DNA from: Betaproteobacteria bacterium
Lineage (GTDB): Bacteria; Pseudomonadota; Gammaproteobacteria; Burkholderiales; Burkholderiaceae_E
DNA length: 55,646 bases
Assembly: GCA_016868175.1 (NCBI GenBank)
Contig: VGHO01000003.1
Location: forward strand, 1-55,646
Direction of reading: 5' to 3'
Shown here: positions 3,370 through 45,924 of the stretch, piece after piece
How positions within the stretch are numbered: position 1 is the stretch's first letter
How the letters are laid out: every line of letters starts with the position of its first letter
The notes under the pieces: generated by a model
Databases searched by the model: none
What the model saw: only the letters and a program-made list of their open reading frames with translations
Told to the model about the DNA's origin: nothing
Position numbers and translations under genes: made by a program

Positions 3370-3780
3370 GCGGGAGGCGACCCGGGCCGGACTACCCTCA
3401 GGCGCGTGCTGGAACGCAGATCGTGAATTGGCGGCACGTGGCATGATTCGGTGACTTTTATACCACGAGGCCTTGATCGCAGTGTCTGTCGTCGTCCCTT
3501 GTTGCGCGGTGGCGAGGGTCCCTGTGAGGTTTGGTTCACCCCCGTCTCGGGCCCTGCGCGGTTCATGCCCAGCCCGGTCCGACCCTACCCAGCCCGACCG
3601 AACCCCGGCGAAGGCTACGATCATGGCTCGGTGGTGGCGTCAGGTCGTAGTTTCCGGGCGTGGCGTCCGAACCTGGCGTCCGCAAGCAAGCCTGACCCAG
3701 GCCAGACCGCATGGGGTTGCCAGGGACGGGTTCTGTCCAACAGAAAGCTCCAACAAACTCGACTTCATGCAACCCTCGCC

Positions 3781-3870
3781 TTCGGACCCCGTGCTTTCGG
3801 ACCCCGCGCCTTCGAACCCCGCGCCTTCGGTCCTCTCGCCTTCGGACCCCGCGCCTTCGAATCCCGCGCC
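3781..3870 (+). repeat. 15-bp tandem repeat, six copies
   Basis: Six head-to-tail units of consensus TTCGGACCCCGCGCC. In the lutA frame they would encode (S/P)(D/N)PAP pentapeptides. They lie upstream of the preferred lutA start, so they may be untranslated or part of a disordered N-terminal extension. Confidence 0.9.
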
Positions 3871-4036
3871 TGGCGCGGCTGCCGCAACGGGCGCACCCTC
3901 GCCCTGGGTTGCGCCAACGGCGACCCCTGCAGCCTTTGATTCGAAGGTCCTTGTGCCGCCTGCATCCTCTAGCGGCGGCCTCATGGCTACACCTGCGATG
4001 ACTACGCGGGCAGTTGCCGGCGCGTCAACGCCTGAG

Positions 4037-29538: not shown

Positions 29539-31686
29539 CTAGCTGAGTTTCATGCCCGGGCGGGCGCCTTCCTCGGCATCAAGGAAAAACATGCTATTGA
29601 TCTCCCCGGAGACATCGGTGGCCGTGAGCAGCATGCCTTCCGAAGTGCCAAAACGCATCTTGCGCGGCGCGAGGTTGGCAACCACCACCGTGGTTCGCCC
29701 GAGCAGCCGTTCGGGCGCAACATGCTCCCGGATGCCCGAAAAAATGATGCGCGGTGCGGCTTCGCCCAGATCCACCGCAAGCTTCAACAGTTTGCTCGAT
29801 CCCTGCACTGCCTCGGCTGAAAGGATCTTCCCGAGCCGCAAATCCACCCGCGCAAAGTCCTCGATGCCGATCGGAGGTGAGGGGGTTGCCGGGCCGGTGC
29901 GCTGCTCGCGGTTTGCCTCCACCAGAGCGTCGATCTGCTTGCGGTCGACCCGGGCGAGAAGGTGCGGAAACACTTCGATGCGGTGGCCCGGCGGCATGCC
30001 TGCGTCGCCCAGGGGATCGATCGAGGCCCAGTCGCGGTTGCTCACGCGCAGCAGGTCGAGTGCGCGCGCGGCGGTGCCCGGGAGCACCGGTTGCAGCATG
30101 CGCATCAGGTGCGCAAAGACGCGCATCGCGGTGCTGCAGACCTGCTGAAGTTCGGCGCCTCGCTCGGCCTGCCTTGCAAGTTCCCAGGGCTTGCGCTGGT
30201 CGATGTATTGGTTGACCGCATCGCACAGCGCCATGACCTCGCGCATCGCACGGCTGTACTCCCGGCCCTCGTACAACGCGCCAAGGCTCTGTGGCCCGCA
30301 CCAGGCTCCGGCGAAGCCCTCGAGCGCAGAGTGCTCGCTCGCACCGAGGCAGCCGTCGTTGCGCCGCGCAAGGAACCCGGAACACCGGGCCGCGATGTTG
30401 ACCAGCTTTCCGACCAGATCAGCATTGACCCGGGCGACAAAGTCCTCGAGGTTGAGGTCGAGGTCCTCCATGCTTGCGTTGAGCTTGGCGGCGAAGTAGT
30501 AGCGCAGCCACTCCGGGTTGAGCCCTTGCTCGATGTAGCTTCGGGCATTGATGAAGGTGCCGCGCGACTTGCTCATCTTCTGGCCGTCGACGGTGAGAAA
30601 ACCATGCGCAAAGACTTTCGTTGGCGGGCGAAATCCTGAGAAATGCAGCATCGCCGGCCAGAAGAGCGTGTGGAAGTAGAGGATGTCCTTGCCAATGAAA
30701 TGGTACTGTTCACACGAGCTGTCTGGGCCGGTGAAGGCGTCGAAGTCGAGGTTCCGGTTCCGCGCGTGGCGCAGAAAGCTTGCGTAGTAGCCGATCGGCG
30801 CATCGAGCCACACGTAGAAATACTTGCCCGGAGCATCGGGGATCTCGAAGCCGAAGTAGGGTGCATCCCGCGAGATATCCCAGTCGGCGAGCCTTGCCTC
30901 GCCCGTGCCAGCCTCCACCCCTGCCTCGCCCGCGCCAGCCTCCACCCCTGCCTCGCCCGCGCCAGCCTCCACCTCTGCGCCGCCGTCGGAATGCCCGAGC
31001 CATTCGCGCAACTTGTTGCGCGCCTCGTTCTGCAGGCGGCCCTCCTCCAGAGCCCACTGGCGCAGGAAGTCCACGCAGCGTTGATCCGAGAGGCGAAAGA
31101 AGTGGTGCTCGGAATTGCGCCGCACAGGCACCGCGCCCGAGACCACCGAGCGTGGATCGATCAGATCGGTGGGGCTGTAGGTAGCGCCGCAGACCTCGCA
31201 GGAGTCGCCGTACTGATCGGGTGCGCCGCAGCGCGGACAGGTGCCGCGGATGAAGCGATCCGGGAGGAACATCTCCCGTTGAGGGTCGTACATCTGCGCG
31301 ATCGAACGCCGTTCGATGAGTCCCGCTTCGTTGAGCGCCTTGTAGATGCGTTGCGCAAGTTCCCGATTTTCCTCGGAGTGTGTGGTGTAGTAGTGGTCGA
31401 AGGCAATCCCGAAGTCCCGGAAGTCGCGGGTATGCTCATGCCAGACACTTTCGATCAGCGTTTCCGGGGTGATGCCGAGCGCCTCGGCCCGAAGCATGAC
31501 CGGTGTGCCGTGCGTATCGTCGGCACACACGTAGTGCACCTCATGACCGCACAGCTTCTGGTAGCGCACCCAGACATCGGTCTGGATGTATTCCACCAGA
31601 TGCCCAAGATGGATGTCGCCATTGGCGTAGGGTAGTGCCGAGGTCACCAGCATTCGGCGACCGGCGGCTTGCGTGGGTATCGTCAT
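29539..31686 (-). CDS. metG: methionyl-tRNA synthetase with repeat insertion
   Basis: MetRS, 715 residues. The class I signature is ANGDIHLGH at about residues 21-29, and KMSKS at about 369-373. The connective peptide has CPRCG and CEVCG for zinc. The C-terminal tRNA-binding (Trbp111-like) domain is fused, with [12 protein letters not shown] and GEINSMFF. Between REWLG and [14 protein letters not shown], where relatives have a short link, there is an insertion with three GEAGVEAGA-type repeats (about 237-264). ATG 31686 was preferred; the frame to 31893 overlaps apbC on the other strand. Confidence 0.95.
30896..30976 (-). repeat. 27-bp in-frame tandem repeat in metG
   Basis: Three 27-base units, nearly identical, encode Glu/Gly/Ala nonapeptides in the loop that joins the connective peptide to the catalytic core of MetRS. 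Confidence 0.9.
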
Positions 31687-36710: not shown

Positions 36711-36766
36711 TTCGCCGTGCGCCTTGCGCGCGGGACTTGCCCATCAACCGATGAGGAACCAGCAAC

Positions 36767-39109
36767 GTGTTTGAAATCGCGAGAAAAACATTCAGCTATG
36801 GGAACAACACCGTCACGCTCGAAACCGGCGAGATCGCCCGCCAGGCGGGTGGTGCGGTCCTGATCAACATGGACGACACCGTGCTGCTTGCCACGGTCGT
36901 TGCAGCCAGGAGTGCGAAGTCGGGTCAGGATTTCTTCCCGTTGACCGTGGACTATGTGGAGAAGTTCTATGCCGCCGGCCGTATTCCCGGGGGCTTCTTC
37001 AAGCGTGAAGGCCGGCCCTCGGAACGCGAAACCCTGATTTCGCGCCTGATCGACCGGCCGATCCGCCCCCTCTTTCCGGATGGCTTCTACAACGAGGTCC
37101 AGCTCGTTGTCACCCTGATGTCGAGCAATCCGGAGGTGGACTCGGACATTCCCGCGATGATCGCCGCTTCGGCTGCGCTTTGCATCGCGGGCATACCCTT
37201 CAGTGGTCCCCTGGGCGCAGCGCGGGTCGGCTACGTCAACGGCACCTATGTGCTCAATCCCTCCGCAACCCAGATGAAGTCCTCGGCCCTTGATCTGGTG
37301 GTGGCGGGTACCGAAGCTGCGGTGCTGATGGTCGAGTCCGAGGCGCATCAGCTCGCTGAAGACGTCATGCTCGGCGCGGTGGTGTACGGCCATGAACAGA
37401 TGCAGACCGTGATCCAGGCCATTCACGAACTTGTGGAGGCCGGGGGGAAACCCGAGTGGGACTGGCAGCCCGCTGCGCGCAACGAGGCGTTGATCGCGCG
37501 CATCGCTGCACTGGCCGAAGACGACATGCGCGCCGCCTACCGTGTGCGCGACAAGCAGCAGCGCACGCATCAGGTTGCCGCAGTGGAGAAGGCCACAGCG
37601 CGTGCACTCGCGGCGGAAGCAGCCGCGGCAGGTCAGCCGGCGCCCGACAGCAGCGAAGTGGCCAACCTGCTCTTCGAGCTGCAGTCGCGGATCGTGCGCA
37701 GCCAGATTCTCGCGGGCGAGCCACGCATCGATGGCCGTGACACCCGCACTGTGCGACCAATCGCGATCCGTTCCGGGGTGCTTCCACGGGCTCACGGCTC
37801 CTCGCTCTTTACCCGGGGCGAGACGCAGGCGCTGGTGGTGGCCACTCTCGGTACCAACCGCGATGAGCAGGTGATCGATGCGATCAACGGCGAGTACCGT
37901 GACCGCTTCATGATGCACTACAACATGCCACCCTATGCCACCGGCGAGACCGGCCGGGTGGGTAGCCCCAAGCGTCGCGAAATCGGACATGGGAGGCTCG
38001 CGCGCAGGGCGCTCGAGCCGCTTCTTCCTGCAGTGTCCGAGTTCGGCTACTCGATCCGGGTTGTGTCGGAAATCACCGAGTCCAACGGGTCATCGTCGAT
38101 GGCGTCGGTCTGCGGAGGTTGCCTTGCGATGATGGATGCCGGCGTACCGATCAGGGCGCATGTGGCCGGCATTGCGATGGGCCTGATTAAGGAGGGCTCA
38201 AGGTTTGCGGTGCTCTCCGACATCCTCGGCGATGAGGACCATCTGGGCGACATGGACTTCAAGGTGGCGGGTACTGAACGCGGCGTCACCGCCTTGCAGA
38301 TGGATATCAAGATTCAGGGCATCACAAAGGAGATCATGCAGGTCGCGCTCGCGCAGGCCCGCGAGGGGCGCCTGCACATTCTCGGCCGGATGCGCGAGGC
38401 CGTCACAGGGGCGCGAAGTGAACTCTCCGATTTCGCTCCGCGCATGTACAACATGAAGATCAACCCGGAGCGGATACGCGATGTGATCGGCAAAGGGGGC
38501 GCCACCATCCGCCAGATCACCGAGGAAACAGGTACCCAGATCGACATCCAGGACAACGGGTCGATCACGATTGCCGCAGTGGACGCGCAGGCGGCGCGGC
38601 GCGCGCAGCAGATGATCGAAAACCTCACCGCCGAGGTGGAGGTGGGCAGGATCTATGAGGGCCCGGTGCTACGCATTCTCGACTTCGGCGCGATTGTCCA
38701 GGTGATGCCCGGACGCGATGGCCTGCTGCATGTGTCGCAGATCGCCAACGAGCGGGTCAATCAGGTGAGCGACTATGTGAAGGAGGGGCAGGTTGTACGG
38801 GTGAAGGTGATCGAGGCCGACGACAAGGGTCGGCTGCGGCTTTCGATGAAGGCGGCAGCCGCGCAGGACGCCGCGCAAGCCGCCGCGCAGGCCCCGGCAG
38901 CAGCGTCCGCCCAGGCGCCCGCGCCCGCCCCGGCACCCGTGCCCGCCCCGGCACCCGTGCCCGCCGTCGTTGCCGCGCCCGCCCCGGCAGCAGCACCTGC
39001 ACCTGCCAACCCGAGCAGTCGTGCGGATGCTCTCCGGGAAGGCCCCAGCGCCAGTCCGGCGGACCCCAACGCCAATCCGGCGGACCCCAACGCCAGTCCG
39101 GTGCATTGA
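36767..39109 (+). CDS. pnp: polyribonucleotide nucleotidyltransferase (PNPase)
   Basis: A 3'-5' phosphorolytic exoribonuclease of the degradosome, 780 residues. Two RNase PH domains ([21 protein letters not shown] in part; later [12 protein letters not shown] and the catalytic region [13 protein letters not shown]), the KH domain with [17 protein letters not shown], and the S1 domain with [19 protein letters not shown] are all visible. The start is GTG 36767 after GAGGAA. The last 85 residues are an Ala/Pro tail with two repeat arrays, not seen in E. coli Pnp. Confidence 0.96.
38923..38958 (+). repeat. 18-bp in-frame tandem repeat in pnp tail
   Basis: Two exact units of GCCCGCCCCGGCACCCGT encode APAPAP(V)-type residues. 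Partial copies flank it, and GCCCCGGCAGCAGC occurs on both sides. Confidence 0.8.
39047..39109 (+). repeat. 21-bp in-frame tandem repeat at the pnp C-terminus
   Basis: Units starting at 39047, 39068 and 39089 encode [14 protein letters not shown] and NASPVH-stop. The stop codon lies in the third unit, so the protein end itself appears to have been formed within the repeat. Confidence 0.85.
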
Positions 39110-40237: not shown

Positions 40238-42259
40238 CTAGCGGCTTTGCCTACCCGCCCCTCTGCCGGCTCCGCCTACCCCCTCGTCGTGCTTCGCCCA
40301 GCCTGCGGGGCTCAGCCTCCAGCCCTCTGCTGCCCGATGGACTTTTCCGTCGGCCTCGAGCTTGATGAGGTGCGCGAGGAGCGAGCGCGCCGCTAGCGGG
40401 TAGAGCGATGGCGAGACCTCGACATAGGCGCCCGGCACGATCATCTCGACAGGAAATCCCGCTTCACCGTGATCAGCCCCGGCCAATGGATCCAGCGGTG
40501 CCTGGCCTGCACCTTCCCGGGCCTCGTGAAGCTTGCGCATGGACCCGAGGACGCTCGCCTCGCGCTGCAGGCGGTGACGGATCAGTTTGCGGATTTCGCG
40601 TGCCGGATTCCCCAGCACATAGCCGTGCGCTGGGAGGATGTAGTGGATCGGCAGCGTTTCGAGGCGAACCAGCGCGTCGAGGTAGTCTCGCATGTTGCCG
40701 TCTGGCGGGTTGATCACCACCGTGGAGCCGTTCATGATGTGGTCGCCCGACAGCAGCAGGCCGTCCTCCTCGATCAGAAAACAGAGGTGGTTCGACGCGT
40801 GCCCCGGCGTGTGAACGACCCTCAGATGCGTATCGGGAAGGATTTCGAGGCGCTCACCGTCTTCGAGGATCCTGTCGGGCATGAAGCCCTGTTCCGCCGC
40901 GACTGAAGCCCCGCTCGGACGCCCCAGAATCGGCACCCGGTAACCGCGCTCCATTGCGATCTCTCGCTGAAGCGTGAACGCTCCGGGCGAGTGGTCCTGG
41001 TGGGAATGCGTACACAGGATGGCCGCAATGCGATCACCCGTGAAATGCCGGATACGTCCCACGTGGGCCGCGATGTCGGGTCCCGGGTCGACCACGGTCC
41101 AATCGCCCGGTGCGCCAAGCAGGTAGGTGTTGGTTCCAGGACCCGTCATGCGTCCTGGATTCGGTGCGGTCAGACGAAAGAGATAACGGAGCAACCCTAC
41201 AGCCTCGTCGTGCTGCCAGTCGAGACGGTGAAGCACCTTGCCGTCGGGGTTTGTCATCTCGAGTTCGGCGAAGGGTGCTTCGTTTTCGGTGTAGCGGGTG
41301 TCCTGGCCCCCGAGCAGGCCGCCACGCGGACAGCTTCGCCACAGACGACCCGCAGCAAATTCCTGCTCCGCGTGTTCGAGAACAGCCTGTACGCAGCTGA
41401 AGCGTTCAAGTTGTTGCAGCGTCCGGATGGTGGGGAAGATCAGCGCGAACCCGCCTCGAGCGTGGCGCGCCAGTGCCTCGGCCGGGTTCACCCAGCACGG
41501 TTCGAACTGTTCGCCCTCGTCGGCCTCGGGCCGCTGTCCCTCCGGCGCACGGGCAACCAGGAAACGCACGTCGAAGCGCTTGGGAAGGTCGCGATCGGTG
41601 GTCCAGTGTGAAAAACTGTGTACTTCCTCCACCTGCGCATACCATCCCTGCCGGGCCAGCGCGGTCGCGAAGCCTTCCGGCGGGTGCCGCGGAAGATTGG
41701 CGATGACGTGTTGCAACAGGGGTGCGGGGTACAGAGATTCCGCCTGATGCCGGGTATCCGGGGCTGCGTGAAGCTGCGAATCCCGCGGAACTGACGCGGT
41801 ATTCTGCAAGAAGGGCGGATAACCGTGGATCCTCGCGGCAAGCAGCAATTGCACTTCCTCCCAGGCCTCCCGAAGCGCCGCCTGTGCGTAGATCCGGTGC
41901 AGTTGCGCTTGCCCGCTGCCGGGGAGTTCGCCGGGAGCAGAAATCGACAGCAGGGAAGGATCGCTGTCCACGGCCAGTGCATCGGCCTCGTCCACCACAC
42001 CGCCGGGAAACACGAAGGCTCCCGGGGCAAAGCTGGCCCGGGTTGACCGGCGTGTCATCAGCACCTCGAGCCGATCCTCACGGTCGCGCAGCAGCAGGAC
42101 CGTCGCTGCTGGCCGCGGGTCGACCGGCTTGCGCCACCCATGAAGCAGCTGGTTGCGCCGGACCTCCGGCCCGGGATCAGGCGGGGCCGTTACCTCCTGC
42201 CCGCCTTGACTTGCATCGGGCCGGTTCGGCCCTGTTGAACGCTGGCTCGGGGGGCTCAC
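40238..42259 (-). CDS. Nudix (NUDT19-like) / metallo-beta-lactamase fusion hydrolase
   Basis: A 673-residue two-domain protein. Residues about 48-290 form a Nudix domain in which the box is interrupted, with GG at 86-87 and REAWEEV at 130-136, separated as in NUDT19-type CoA diphosphatases. Residues about 365-570 form a metallo-beta-lactamase domain with THSHQDH at 417-423, HTPGHASNHL and SGDHIMNG, resembling LACTB2. A winged-helix tail follows. The start is set at GTG 42259, which overlaps the FadB-like stop (GTGA); no better start is visible. Upstream open frame to 42589 is antisense noise. Its place behind the beta-oxidation enzyme suggests acyl-CoA or CoA turnover, which is inference. Confidence 0.82.
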   Translation of the reverse strand: MSPPSQRSTGPNRPDASQGGQEVTAPPDPGPEVRRNQLLHGWRKPVDPRPAATVLLLRDREDRLEVLMTRRSTRASFAPGAFVFPGGVVDEADALAVDSDPSLLSISAPGELPGSGQAQLHRIYAQAALREAWEEVQLLLAARIHGYPPFLQNTASVPRDSQLHAAPDTRHQAESLYPAPLLQHVIANLPRHPPEGFATALARQGWYAQVEEVHSFSHWTTDRDLPKRFDVRFLVARAPEGQRPEADEGEQFEPCWVNPAEALARHARGGFALIFPTIRTLQQLERFSCVQAVLEHAEQEFAAGRLWRSCPRGGLLGGQDTRYTENEAPFAELEMTNPDGKVLHRLDWQHDEAVGLLRYLFRLTAPNPGRMTGPGTNTYLLGAPGDWTVVDPGPDIAAHVGRIRHFTGDRIAAILCTHSHQDHSPGAFTLQREIAMERGYRVPILGRPSGASVAAEQGFMPDRILEDGERLEILPDTHLRVVHTPGHASNHLCFLIEEDGLLLSGDHIMNGSTVVINPPDGNMRDYLDALVRLETLPIHYILPAHGYVLGNPAREIRKLIRHRLQREASVLGSMRKLHEAREGAGQAPLDPLAGADHGEAGFPVEMIVPGAYVEVSPSLYPLAARSLLAHLIKLEADGKVHRAAEGWRLSPAGWAKHDEGVGGAGRGAGRQSR

Positions 42260-44646
42260 GCTGCGCTGGCCCTGTCGTGTTCGGCCTCCGCCAGGGTGTG
42301 CAGGATCGCGGGCGGGGCGAACCGGTCGCCATATTGAGCCTGCAAGGCCTTGCAACGCGCAAGAAAGCGAGGCGCGCCAACATGGTGCACGTACTGCAAG
42401 GTTCCACCGGTCCAGGCAGGGAACCCCCAGCCCATGATGGCACCGATGTTGGCATCGTGCTCGGCCCGCACAACACCCTCCTGCAGGCAGCGGAGGGTCT
42501 CGATCGACTGGACCATGGTGAGCCGGTCGCGGATGTCGGTGTCGCTGATCGGCCTGGCTGCACGGGAGAACGCCACCAACCCGGGCCACAGGCGCTTGGG
42601 CTCGCCCTCGGGGTAATCGTAGAAGCCCCCTCCGTAGGCGCGGCCCATGCGCTTGAAGCCATGGGCCATCTTCTCGAGCACGTAGACCGCCGACTCGGCC
42701 ATACGTTGCGACCTGGGCGCAGTCCTGCGGCCCTGACGGCGGCCCTGGTCCTCCCGATGGCCGTGGTCATGTCCGTGGCCATGATCGTGTTCGTGAGCGT
42801 GGTCATGTCCGTGGCCATGATCGTGTTCGTGACCGTGTTCGTGAGCGTGGTCATGTCCGTGGCCATGACCGTGCCCGTGACCGTGTTCGTGACTGTGGTC
42901 ATGTCCGTGGCCATGACCGTGCCTGTGGTCGTGACCCCGGTTTCCCGCCGCATCTGCGATCGCGTCGAGCTCCTGGTGCAGCACATCGTCGGCAAGCTTC
43001 AGCGAGACCTCGTCGAGCACCGCGAGCGGCCCCACCGGCATGCCGAACTGCGCGGCAATGTTCTCGATCCGCGCGGGCAGCACGCCCTCGCCGAGGAGCG
43101 CCATACCCTCGTTCACATAGCTGCCGAAGACCCTGGAGGTGTAGAAGCCCCGGGCGTCGTTTACAACGATTGGCGTCTTGCCGAGTTGCTTCACGAAGTC
43201 GTAGGCTTTGGCGAGCGCAGCATCACCGGTCTGCCGTCCCCGAATGATCTCCACCAGCGGCATCTTCTCCACAGGAGAGAAGAAATGGATGCCGATGAAG
43301 TTCTCAGGACGGTGACTGGCCCGCGCAAGCTCGCTGATCGGCAGCGTGGAGGTGTTCGAGGCGAAGATCAGCTCCTCGTTGGCAAAAGCGAGTGCCTCCT
43401 GCGTGACCTGCGCCTTGAGGGCTGCGTCCTCGAAGACAGCCTCGATGACCAGATCGCATCCGCGCAAGTCTGCGGCATCTGCGGTGGCCTGGATGCGTTG
43501 GAGCGTGGCCTGCGCTTTCTCGGGCGGGATTCGCCCTTGCTCCACGCGGCGCGCCAGCAGGCGCGCACTCAGGGCCTTGCCCTGCTCGGCCTTTTCCCGT
43601 GTGAGGTCCTTCAGCACCACGCTGATGCCGCGCGATGCCGCAGCCCAGGCGATTCCCGCGCCCATCATCCCGGCGCCAAGAACGCCAAGCTTCATGGTCA
43701 TCCGCGCGGCCTCGGCCGATGGCCGACTGCGATCGGACTTGATGTCGTTGAGGTTGAAGAAGAACGCAGTGATCATGTTCTTGGAAACCTGGCCCGTGGC
43801 GAGGCGGGTGAGCCAACGCGATTCGATCCGCAGCGCGGTGTCGAAGTCGAGCCCAGCGCTCTCCACTGCCACGGCAAGGATCGCTTCCTGCGCCGGGAAG
43901 TTGCCGCGGGTCTTCTCGAGGAGCATCGCCGGAGCCACACTGAGCATCGCGGCAACCGATGGATTTGTCGGGCCGCCGCCGGGAATCCGGTGCTTCGGGT
44001 TATCCCAGGGTTGGGTGCAATGACCGCCCTCGAGTGCCGCAAAGGCTGCAGGCATCAGTGCGTCTTCATGGGTGACGATTTGCGTGACCCAGCCCATCTC
44101 CAGTGCCTGCTTCGGCGTGAGCCGGCGCGATTCGGTGAGGGTTTCCACCGCAGCCTGGATTCCCTTCAGACGGACCGTCTTCACGATGCCTCCGGCGCCC
44201 GGCAGAAGTCCGAGGCTGGCTTCCGGAAAGCCGATTTCGAGACCCGGTCGATCCACAACGATCCGGTGATGGCAGGCAAGCACCACCTCGAGTCCACCCC
44301 CCAGCGCTGAGCCGCTCATCGCAGCCACCACAGGTTTCCCAAGACGCTCGAGCGCGCGCAAGTCGGCCTTCATCGCTTCGACCTCGCGGAAAAAATCCGC
44401 AGCGTCGAGGGGACCCACGCCGAGCAGAGCCTTGAGGTCGGCCCCGGCGAAGAAGGTGCTCTTGGCCGAGGTGATGATCACGCCCTGGAGTTCGGGGTGC
44501 GCCTGCAGATCGCGGCGAATGGCGGCCAGCGCCTCGTGCAGATCGGTGCGAAAGCCCGCGTTCATGAGGTTCACTGAAGAGGCCGGCGCATCCAGCGTGA
44601 GGACGATCGCACGGCCGGATTCGATGGCATAACGGATCGAGCGCAT
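42256..44646 (-). CDS. FadB-like enoyl-CoA hydratase/3-hydroxyacyl-CoA dehydrogenase with His-rich insertion
   Basis: A 796-residue bifunctional beta-oxidation enzyme. The crotonase domain has SALGGGLE with Glu120 and FPEASLGLLPGAGG with Glu142, the catalytic pair. The dehydrogenase domain has GVLGAGMMGAG at about 321-331 and the His454/Glu466 pair in IGIHFFSPVEKMPLVE. The C-terminal helical domain contains MPVGPLAVLDEVSL and GGGFYDYPEG. Between these last two, residues 571-630 are thirty consecutive X-His dipeptides. All catalytic residues are retained. The start ATG is 2 bases after the thiolase stop. Confidence 0.93.
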   Translation of the reverse strand: MRSIRYAIESGRAIVLTLDAPASSVNLMNAGFRTDLHEALAAIRRDLQAHPELQGVIITSAKSTFFAGADLKALLGVGPLDAADFFREVEAMKADLRALERLGKPVVAAMSGSALGGGLEVVLACHHRIVVDRPGLEIGFPEASLGLLPGAGGIVKTVRLKGIQAAVETLTESRRLTPKQALEMGWVTQIVTHEDALMPAAFAALEGGHCTQPWDNPKHRIPGGGPTNPSVAAMLSVAPAMLLEKTRGNFPAQEAILAVAVESAGLDFDTALRIESRWLTRLATGQVSKNMITAFFFNLNDIKSDRSRPSAEAARMTMKLGVLGAGMMGAGIAWAAASRGISVVLKDLTREKAEQGKALSARLLARRVEQGRIPPEKAQATLQRIQATADAADLRGCDLVIEAVFEDAALKAQVTQEALAFANEELIFASNTSTLPISELARASHRPENFIGIHFFSPVEKMPLVEIIRGRQTGDAALAKAYDFVKQLGKTPIVVNDARGFYTSRVFGSYVNEGMALLGEGVLPARIENIAAQFGMPVGPLAVLDEVSLKLADDVLHQELDAIADAAGNRGHDHRHGHGHGHDHSHEHGHGHGHGHGHDHAHEHGHEHDHGHGHDHAHEHDHGHGHDHGHREDQGRRQGRRTAPRSQRMAESAVYVLEKMAHGFKRMGRAYGGGFYDYPEGEPKRLWPGLVAFSRAARPISDTDIRDRLTMVQSIETLRCLQEGVVRAEHDANIGAIMGWGFPAWTGGTLQYVHHVGAPRFLARCKALQAQYGDRFAPPAILHTLAEAEHDRASAA
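42757..42936 (-). repeat. 180-bp His-rich repeat, thirty X-His dipeptides
   Basis: Sixty codons alternate X-His, where X is Gly (15), Asp, Glu, Ala, Ser or Arg. At DNA level the array is built from larger units of about 36-48 bases that share a GTGGTCATGTCCGTGGCCAT core on the plus strand. The frame is preserved throughout. Confidence 0.92.
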
Positions 44647-44648
44647 GA

Positions 44649-45854
44649 TCAGACCCGCTCGATGATGGTGGCAATGCCCATGCCGCCACCCACGCAGAGC
44701 GTGGCAAGCCCGCGTCGCAGCTCGCGCCGCTCGAGTTCGTCGAGCAGGGTGCCAAGGATGATGCAGCCGGTGGCGCCAAGCGGGTGTCCCATCGCGATGG
44801 CGCCGCCGTTCACATTCACCTTTTCCGCCGGGATCGTGAGCTCACTCATGAAGCGCAACACCACGGCGGCGAAGGCCTCGTTTACTTCGAAGAGGTCGAT
44901 GTCGTTGGCCTCAAGGCCTGCGCGGGCGAGCGCCTTGCGACTCGCGGGAGCCGGCCCGGTGAGCATGATGGTGGGATCGGTTCCGGTTAGCGCGGTGGCC
45001 ACCACCCGCGCGCGGGGTTCGAGACCGAGCGTGGTTGCGGCCTGCGCATTGCCGAGCAGCATCAACGCCGCCCCATCCACGATGCCCGAGCTGTTTCCCG
45101 CGTGGTGAACATGCGCGATGCGCTCGACCTGCGGATACTTGCGCAGTGCGATCGCGTCAAAGCCCATTGCACCGAGCCTTTCGAAGGAAGGCTTGAGCGA
45201 CGCGAGGCTCTGGATCGAGGTTTCGGGGCGAATGGTTTCGTCGTGGTCGAGGATCGGCAGTCCGAGTTCATCGCAGACAGGGATGATCGAACGGTGGAAG
45301 TAACCGGCGGCCTGCGCCTGGGCCGCCTTGCAGTGCGATTGCGCGCCGAAGGCATCGAGGTCCTCGCGCGAATAGCCGTCGAGGGTTGCGACCAGATCCG
45401 CGCCGATTCCCTGGGGAACGAAGGAGGTGAGAACGTTGATCTCGGGGTCGTGGGCCCAGGCGCCGCCATCGGATCCCATCGGCACCCGCGACATCGACTC
45501 GACGCCGCCCGCTACCACCAGATCCTCCCATCCCGAGGCCACTTTCTGCGCAGCGAGATTCACCGCCTCGAGACCCGAGGCGCAGAAGCGGTTGATCTGC
45601 ACGCCTGCAGCCCTCAGGTCCCAGCCTGCGGCGAGCGCGGCGGTTCGTGCGATCACCGAGCCTTGCTCGCCCACCGGGCTCACACACCCGATCACCACAT
45701 CGTCAACGCGGGAGGTATCGAGTTGTGTGCGCTCGGCCAGGCTGCGCATGAGGTTGCTCAGGAGGCGAATCGGTTTCACCTCATGCAGTGCGCCGCTGGA
45801 CTTGCCCCGCCCGCGTGGCGTGCGGATCGCGTCGTAGATGAAGACCTCGGACAT
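44649..45854 (-). CDS. acetyl-CoA acetyltransferase (thiolase)
   Basis: A 401-residue degradative thiolase (FadA/PcaF-like) that cleaves 3-ketoacyl-CoA. The nucleophile is Cys91 in [12 protein letters not shown]; His357 in GHPLGATG and Cys387 in TLCVGGGMG complete the site. GGGAGC precedes the ATG at 45854. The open frame to 47258 is antisense to a dehydrogenase. It heads the minus-strand operon with the FadB-like enzyme 2 bases downstream. Confidence 0.94.
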
Positions 45855-45875: not shown

Positions 45876-45924
45876 GTGTGGGGTGTGGAGTGTGGGGTGT
45901 GGGGTGTGGGGCGTGGGGCGTGGC
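45876..45924 (+). repeat. 7-bp G-rich tandem repeat between divergent operons
   Basis: Seven heptamers of consensus GTGTGGG. Within 45894-45918 four runs of GGGG are separated by three-base loops, ideal G-quadruplex spacing on the plus strand. It lies 22 bases from the thiolase ATG and 120 bases from the acyl-CoA dehydrogenase ATG. Confidence 0.88.

Follow-up and report, generated by a model that had tools for sequence, protein, structure and literature searches.

A histidine-rich, predicted disordered loop in FadJ-like beta-oxidation enzymes of one bacterial family, and its possible role in metal buffering

A FadB/FadJ-like multifunctional enzyme of a betaproteobacterium carries thirty consecutive X-His dipeptides within its C-terminal helical domain, and many of its relatives have kept such a tract while losing their catalytic domains. 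We read this as a His-rich disordered loop that was gained in one family and binds metal as a cytosolic buffer or store, catalysis then being dispensable, and we give this reading a probability of about 0.58. The DNA analyzed (55,646 nucleotides, hereafter the window) comes from a 2.95-Mb genome in 353 contigs (labeled G000), of which it is contig 3.

The gene is located at 42256..44646 on the minus strand, has an ATG start, and encodes 796 amino acids. Pfam analysis placed ECH_1 at residues 14–200, 3HCDH_N at 319–497, and the first 3HCDH stretch at 500–562, all N-terminal of the tract; the order ECH, 3HCDH_N, 3HCDH is that of FadB and FadJ enzymes. The PF02492 nucleotide-binding domain was not among the Pfam matches of this protein or of nine eroded relatives. 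The NCBIfam equivalog models gave 500.4 bits for FadJ (PRK11154, cut-off 869) and 473.7 bits for FadB (PRK11730, cut-off 870). Because both scores are below the cut-offs, we regarded the protein as a member of the FadB/FadJ superfamily and not as the E. coli-type protein. The AlphaFold2 model had a mean pLDDT of 85.4 and a pTM of 0.82. Foldseek aligned it to Mycobacterium tuberculosis FadB (4b3h / 8oqo) with a TM-score of 0.82 by query and 42% identity. This closest solved protein shares the three-part architecture, the fold, the catalytic residues, and an adjoining thiolase gene. The first-pass annotation, made from the sequence of the window, had called the protein FadB-like, and domain order and fold bear this out, though below the equivalog cut-offs. 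It had also stated that the catalytic residues of both domains are intact. E120, E142, H454, and E466 are indeed all present; from work on FadB, we take E120/E142 to be the crotonase Glu pair and H454/E466 to be the dehydrogenase His-Glu pair.

The longest uninterrupted run of a non-His residue followed by His spans residues 571–630 (42757..42936, minus strand). On recounting, it contained exactly 30 pairs, as first annotated. The X residues are G (15), D (7), E (4), A (2), R (1), and S (1). Outside the run, only 16 of 736 residues (2.2%) are His, so chance does not explain the tract. In the DNA, it takes the form of a 48-bp tandem array of 3.6 copies with 88% matches. It is not an assembly slip of one record, because other assemblies, including the single-contig genome G018, carry equivalents. 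Other tandem arrays in the window with a unit divisible by three lie at 30895–30978 (27 bases), 38883–38989 (18 bases), and 3773–3871 (45 bases). An odd GGG preference among the Gly codons of the tract was dropped as a lead, as 23 Gly codons preceding His elsewhere lean likewise.

The stretch without a counterpart is slightly longer than the run and comprises residues 570–652 (42691..42939, minus strand). It puts 83 residues with 30 XH pairs in the place of 5 residues in 4b3h. Residues 570–641 are the only segment of the model with pLDDT below 50 and are flanked by helices 549–566 and 651–663; the tract is thus predicted to be intrinsically disordered. The structure prediction proposed by the first-pass annotation placed it as a disordered segment between two helices. 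The same annotation had described it as interrupting the C-terminal helical domain. It does lie inside that domain, but at a natural loop.

All three other genomes of the same genus had the tract. For the whole family, 74 genomes were searched with the C-terminal region of an eroded relative as the probe. The probe matched in 64 genomes and had no match in the other 10, indicating that the His-tract gene is dispensable. Among the matching genomes, 56 were parsed with a regular expression that favors members with the usual right-hand anchor, and three more, tract-less members that it had missed, were added from the alignment. A His-rich stretch was present in 55 of these 59 parsed members, with 10–75 His (median 32). 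The exceptions include three full-length members of genus g5 (G008, G010, and G011), whose linkers are 41–45 residues long with a single His at the edge; the fourth g5 member, G009, has 13 His. G021, also among the 59, is cut by a contig end. A His-rich region is also visible in four further members cut by contig ends (G028, G041, G054, and G073), and the G038 homologue is a fragment. Judged by these members, the tract is a family trait and not a strain-level repeat, which answers the earlier question of whether it is fixed or strain-specific, though three g5 members lack it.

Tract length varied among close relatives, with 72–102 residues between anchors at 91–97% identity outside. G001 and G002 are 97% identical outside the tract, and their anchored intervals are 90 and 102 residues, respectively. 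These comparisons suggested that tract length turns over fast while the His content stays. G002 also has two copies of the gene region, L009 (G002:C276) and L012 (G002:C19), perhaps from a strain mixture in this metagenome-derived genome; their different tracts show fast turnover as well. In L186 (G072:C1:3532000-3541500), two frames each hold part of the gene (query 1–481 and 478–784), owing to a frameshift or a sequencing error.

Outside the family, the corresponding linker was short. Besides L058 of the same genus, 79 named loci were examined, and L076 (cut) and L118, L127, and L136 (wrong ORF picked) were dropped. All 75 measurable loci, placed elsewhere by their record titles alone, had an aligned linker of 3–31 residues with 0–2 His. 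A search of 399 genomes of the order gave 37 matches outside the family, four of them by the tract alone, and 19 of the other 33 were read. A search of 369 genomes of the class led to the reading of eight enzyme loci outside the family, one being a gene already read. All 27 loci (26 distinct genes) had 17–27 linker residues with 0–2 His. Among the loci read, the tract appeared confined to one family; rare cases outside may exist.

We analyzed how well the histidines are retained in the tract. An in-register cell was defined as a position with His two places away on both sides and non-His direct neighbors. The center residue was His in 1079 of 1196 cells (90%), a figure to be taken as a guide and not as proof, since cell choice by flanking His, a mixed start, and repeat homogenization all favor His. 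The His codons of these cells were CAC 681 and CAT 398, similar to 290 and 186 outside the tract, and the synonymous sites look near equilibrium. In a neutral simulation started from CAC only, 7–31% of His was left once CAT had reached 25–37%, a result that a mixed start or repeat homogenization would weaken. The His positions seem to be kept by selection beyond neutral expectation. A long His-rich segment apparently under selection, one of the features by which we judged metal-store proteins, was found in the tract.

The catalytic domains had a different fate from the tract. Of the His-bearing members with a frame across all four catalytic positions, 23 of 23 kept them; G043 was included despite the truncation of its first 89 residues, and G072, with its two frames, was left out. 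The three tract-less g5 members likewise kept the four residues. In 29 members, the catalytic domains were decayed or gone or catalytic residues were lost, whereas the helical C-terminal domain and the tract were retained. Among these, G022 was counted as eroded by hand, as the regular expression had missed it, and it has no label on the protein tree. Eight cut or fragmentary members (G016, G021, G028, G038, G040, G041, G054, and G073) were classed neither as full nor as eroded. One of them, G041, has a cut tract but covers the four catalytic positions, all of which are kept.

The eroded members represented several stages of decay. G004 has a crotonase domain and no recognizable NAD-binding domain, and G014 has a crotonase remnant in which E142 is replaced. 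G056 and G057 have no crotonase, a decayed NAD-binding region, and a replaced catalytic His. G019 retains a partial 3HCDH_N above the Pfam cut-off, with no crotonase and the catalytic His replaced. In G020, a His and a Glu align at the dehydrogenase positions in an otherwise decayed region. In most of g15 and in G013, G027, and G063, open frames of 274–362 codons encode little more than the helical C-terminal domain and the tract. In g13, the open frames of G036 and G037 have 214 and 206 codons; here the tract lies at the N terminus, and the linker contains no His. The probe match in g13 runs over an in-frame stop and the C-terminal end is missing; these short proteins may be decaying themselves.

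The probe matched in all nine genomes of genus g11, in five of which much of the pathway appeared to be missing. The acyl-CoA dehydrogenase family PF00441 gave one weak match each in G017, G020, G021, G023, and G024, whereas G000 had 18 matches and G045 had 34; within g11, G018 had 2 and G025 had 8. The best 3HCDH_N matches were weak (E 5e-5 in G017 and E 4e-5 in G024), though both counted above the Pfam cut-off. Thiolase matches numbered 1–4 in g11 except in G019, which had 9; G000 had 6 and G045 had 13. With G020 80% and G024 88% complete, some absences may be gaps. In five g11 genomes, the remnant outlives most of beta-oxidation. Because the tract is kept where the enzyme parts have decayed or disappeared, these results suggested that it has its own job, separate from catalysis.

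We then compared the gene neighborhoods. A thiolase (acetyl-CoA C-acetyltransferase) gene is located at 44649..45854 on the minus strand; it scored above the NF006090 cut-off, and its start was set at the beginning of the family model. Two bases separate its stop from the ATG of the His-tract gene, and it is the probable operon partner. A seven-base tandem repeat (GTGTGGG, about 7 copies) lies at 45876–45923, just ahead of the likely thiolase start, and is probably intergenic. Downstream of the His-tract gene is a gene for a NUDIX + metallo-beta-lactamase-fold (NUDIX/MBL) hydrolase (40238..42136, minus strand, start approximate), and the polynucleotide phosphorylase (pnp) open frame at 36755..39106 on the plus strand served as a syntenic marker. 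The synteny set contained 24 loci, the window included, and 13 were eroded. pnp was near the His-tract gene in 21 of the 24 and the NUDIX/MBL gene adjoined it in 19; at least one of the two was nearby in every locus. The five g11 loci had pnp and no NUDIX/MBL hydrolase. A GGDEF-EAL gene adjoined the His-tract gene in 13 of the 24 loci. In many relatives (e.g., L190 10265–14326), the adjoining genes encode a 7TM GGDEF-EAL protein and a FeeM-like protein, of the N-acyl amino acid synthase type but below cut-off; this is not so in the window.

The trees differed on the history of erosion. On the tree of the protein's C-terminal part (67 rows, 184 columns), the eroded forms fell in one clade with long branches and required one change. 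The pnp protein tree (27 rows) required five changes, with some forks unresolved; it grouped the eroded G056 and G057 with full-length members of g16, and G035 with full-length members of g12 and g6. Two histories would account for this: parallel loss of the domains with convergence of the remnants, or in-place replacement of full genes by an eroded one. Since the eroded forms group in a single clade on the tree of the protein itself, erosion may have happened once and then spread.

Histidine-rich metal-store proteins include Hpn, His-rich HypB, SlyD, and HspA. Eight proteins were found here by the tract alone, and Pfam assigned five of them to metal handling: two CobW/HypB/UreG-type GTPases, which we read as HypB, a UreE, a ZnuA, and a cation-efflux protein. 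The remaining three were an N-formylglutamate amidohydrolase and two proteins without a Pfam family. The amidohydrolase (PF05013), another metabolic enzyme, is encoded by the minus-strand ORF 1677–3404 of L237 (G316:C1:18000-21500) and has a C-terminal His-rich tail. L238 (809–1540, plus strand) and L239 (1594–2142, minus strand) encode small proteins from two genomes that share a genus (f17, g32); neither has a Pfam match, and both end in a Cys/His-rich tail and are possibly small metal-handling proteins. The HypB-type GTPases, UreE, ZnuA, and cation-efflux proteins share the type of tract, but their domains serve metal pathways and the beta-oxidation domain does not. A genomic link to metalloenzyme or metal genes, another feature by which we judged metal stores, was not seen when urease, NiFe hydrogenase, and the gene neighbors were examined. 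The identified neighbors (pnp, NUDIX/MBL, GGDEF-EAL, FeeM-like, and thiolase) include no metal genes. An Rfam riboswitch search of 8 loci found no riboswitch, only a tRNA.

Several known proteins resemble parts of this arrangement. Helicobacter HspA is described as a GroES homologue with a C-terminal His/Cys-rich, metal-sequestering extension (PMC7840056). Like HspA, the present protein is a housekeeping protein with a lineage-specific His-rich addition, which here would bind metal. Unlike in HspA, the addition lies within the chain, and many relatives have lost the housekeeping activity. In Cupriavidus metallidurans, another report describes CobW2 as a zinc-storage protein with a run of adjacent metal-binding sites and CobW3 as having lost its GTPase function (PMC12632275). 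A run of adjacent, here putative, metal sites on a folded domain is common to both cases, but the scaffold is a beta-oxidation enzyme here and a GTPase there (PMC12632275). The FadJ-like Legionella Lpg1596 is also an enoyl-CoA hydratase/3HCDH protein, and it binds nickel resin. It differs in having no His stretch: it was a Ni-NTA contaminant without a run of consecutive His, and its authors, in the text available, favor surface His clusters and give it no metal role (PMC12211046). Because Lpg1596 binds Ni-NTA without a His run, nickel-resin binding would be weak evidence for the role of the tract (PMC12211046). A literature search for histidine-rich FadJ, FadB, hydroxyacyl-CoA dehydrogenase, or enoyl-CoA hydratase, with subscription papers largely outside its reach, found no such protein.

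We propose that one family acquired a His-rich disordered loop within the C-terminal helical domain of a FadJ-like enzyme of beta-oxidation. The alternating His, with Asp, Glu, Gly, or Ala between them, would bind transition metals, zinc first and then cobalt, copper, or nickel. Carried on a stable folded helical domain, the tract would buffer or store metal in the cytosol. Both catalytic domains, crotonase and dehydrogenase, would then have decayed in many relatives, because the metal job needs no catalysis, the extreme being the 3HCDH C-terminal domain plus the tract; such relatives without catalytic domains set the group apart from the FadB/FadJ alpha subunit of the trifunctional beta-oxidation enzyme. 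As in the first-pass annotation, metal binding is the leading idea; we infer it, as we do which metal is bound, the buffering function, and the sequence of events. That annotation had worked from a single sequence and lacked the family-wide sharing and the catalytic decay in relatives; its interpretation is partly supported. Our guess is that zinc is likelier than nickel, because no rare enzyme is needed and CobW2 is described as a zinc-storage protein (PMC12632275). More tentatively, at somewhat less than even odds, these proteins would form a new metal-buffer family converted from a beta-oxidation enzyme, in which domains were shed several times, or once with in-place replacement, and whose present-day members range from full enzyme to a remnant of roughly 200 residues.

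Other explanations were weighed against metal buffering. The tract might act as a pH- or metal-tuned scaffold or condensate, driving self-association or the clustering of pathway enzymes, with His protonation as the switch and metal incidental. A predicted disordered, length-variable tract of His with G, D, A, and E would suit condensate formation. However, the remnant persists where most acyl-CoA dehydrogenases are lost, and therefore beta-oxidation clustering cannot be its general role; with five of the eight tract-only proteins being metal proteins as well, we consider this idea unlikely. A tract that senses metal and switches the enzyme would fit the intact catalytic sets of the 23 His-bearing enzymes, but the 29 members that kept it without a full catalytic set make such control distinctly unlikely.

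A nickel store or chaperone for urease or NiFe hydrogenase is suggested by the XH tracts on the family's CobW/HypB/UreG-type protein and UreE (L223 and L224). As the general role, it is disfavored. Among 59 tract-bearing genomes, 31 had urease, one had NiFe hydrogenase, and 28 had neither; 6 of the other 15 genomes (two with a cut or fragmentary homologue) had urease, and no association was visible. We regard this role as very improbable. The first-pass annotation had also allowed for a neutral repeat expansion without function. The tract is a tandem repeat, its length varies between close relatives, and some family members lack it, as such an expansion would predict. Against this, it is family-wide (55 of 59 parsed members), its His resist substitution (kept at 1079 of 1196 in-register positions, the synonymous sites being near equilibrium), it persists after catalysis is lost, and in g13 it has an N-terminal place. 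Neutral expansion now appears the least credible account, with a very small chance of being right.

Metal proteins and a few chaperones are known to carry His-rich metal tracts. Here, such a tract is found on an enzyme of central metabolism, is apparently under selection, and persists where the enzyme is lost. Should the metal role hold, the family would show, in natural graded steps, how an enzyme turns into a metal-handling protein, and proteins labeled "3-hydroxyacyl-CoA dehydrogenase" in this family would often not be enzymes. A link between fatty-acid oxidation and metal buffering becomes directly testable.
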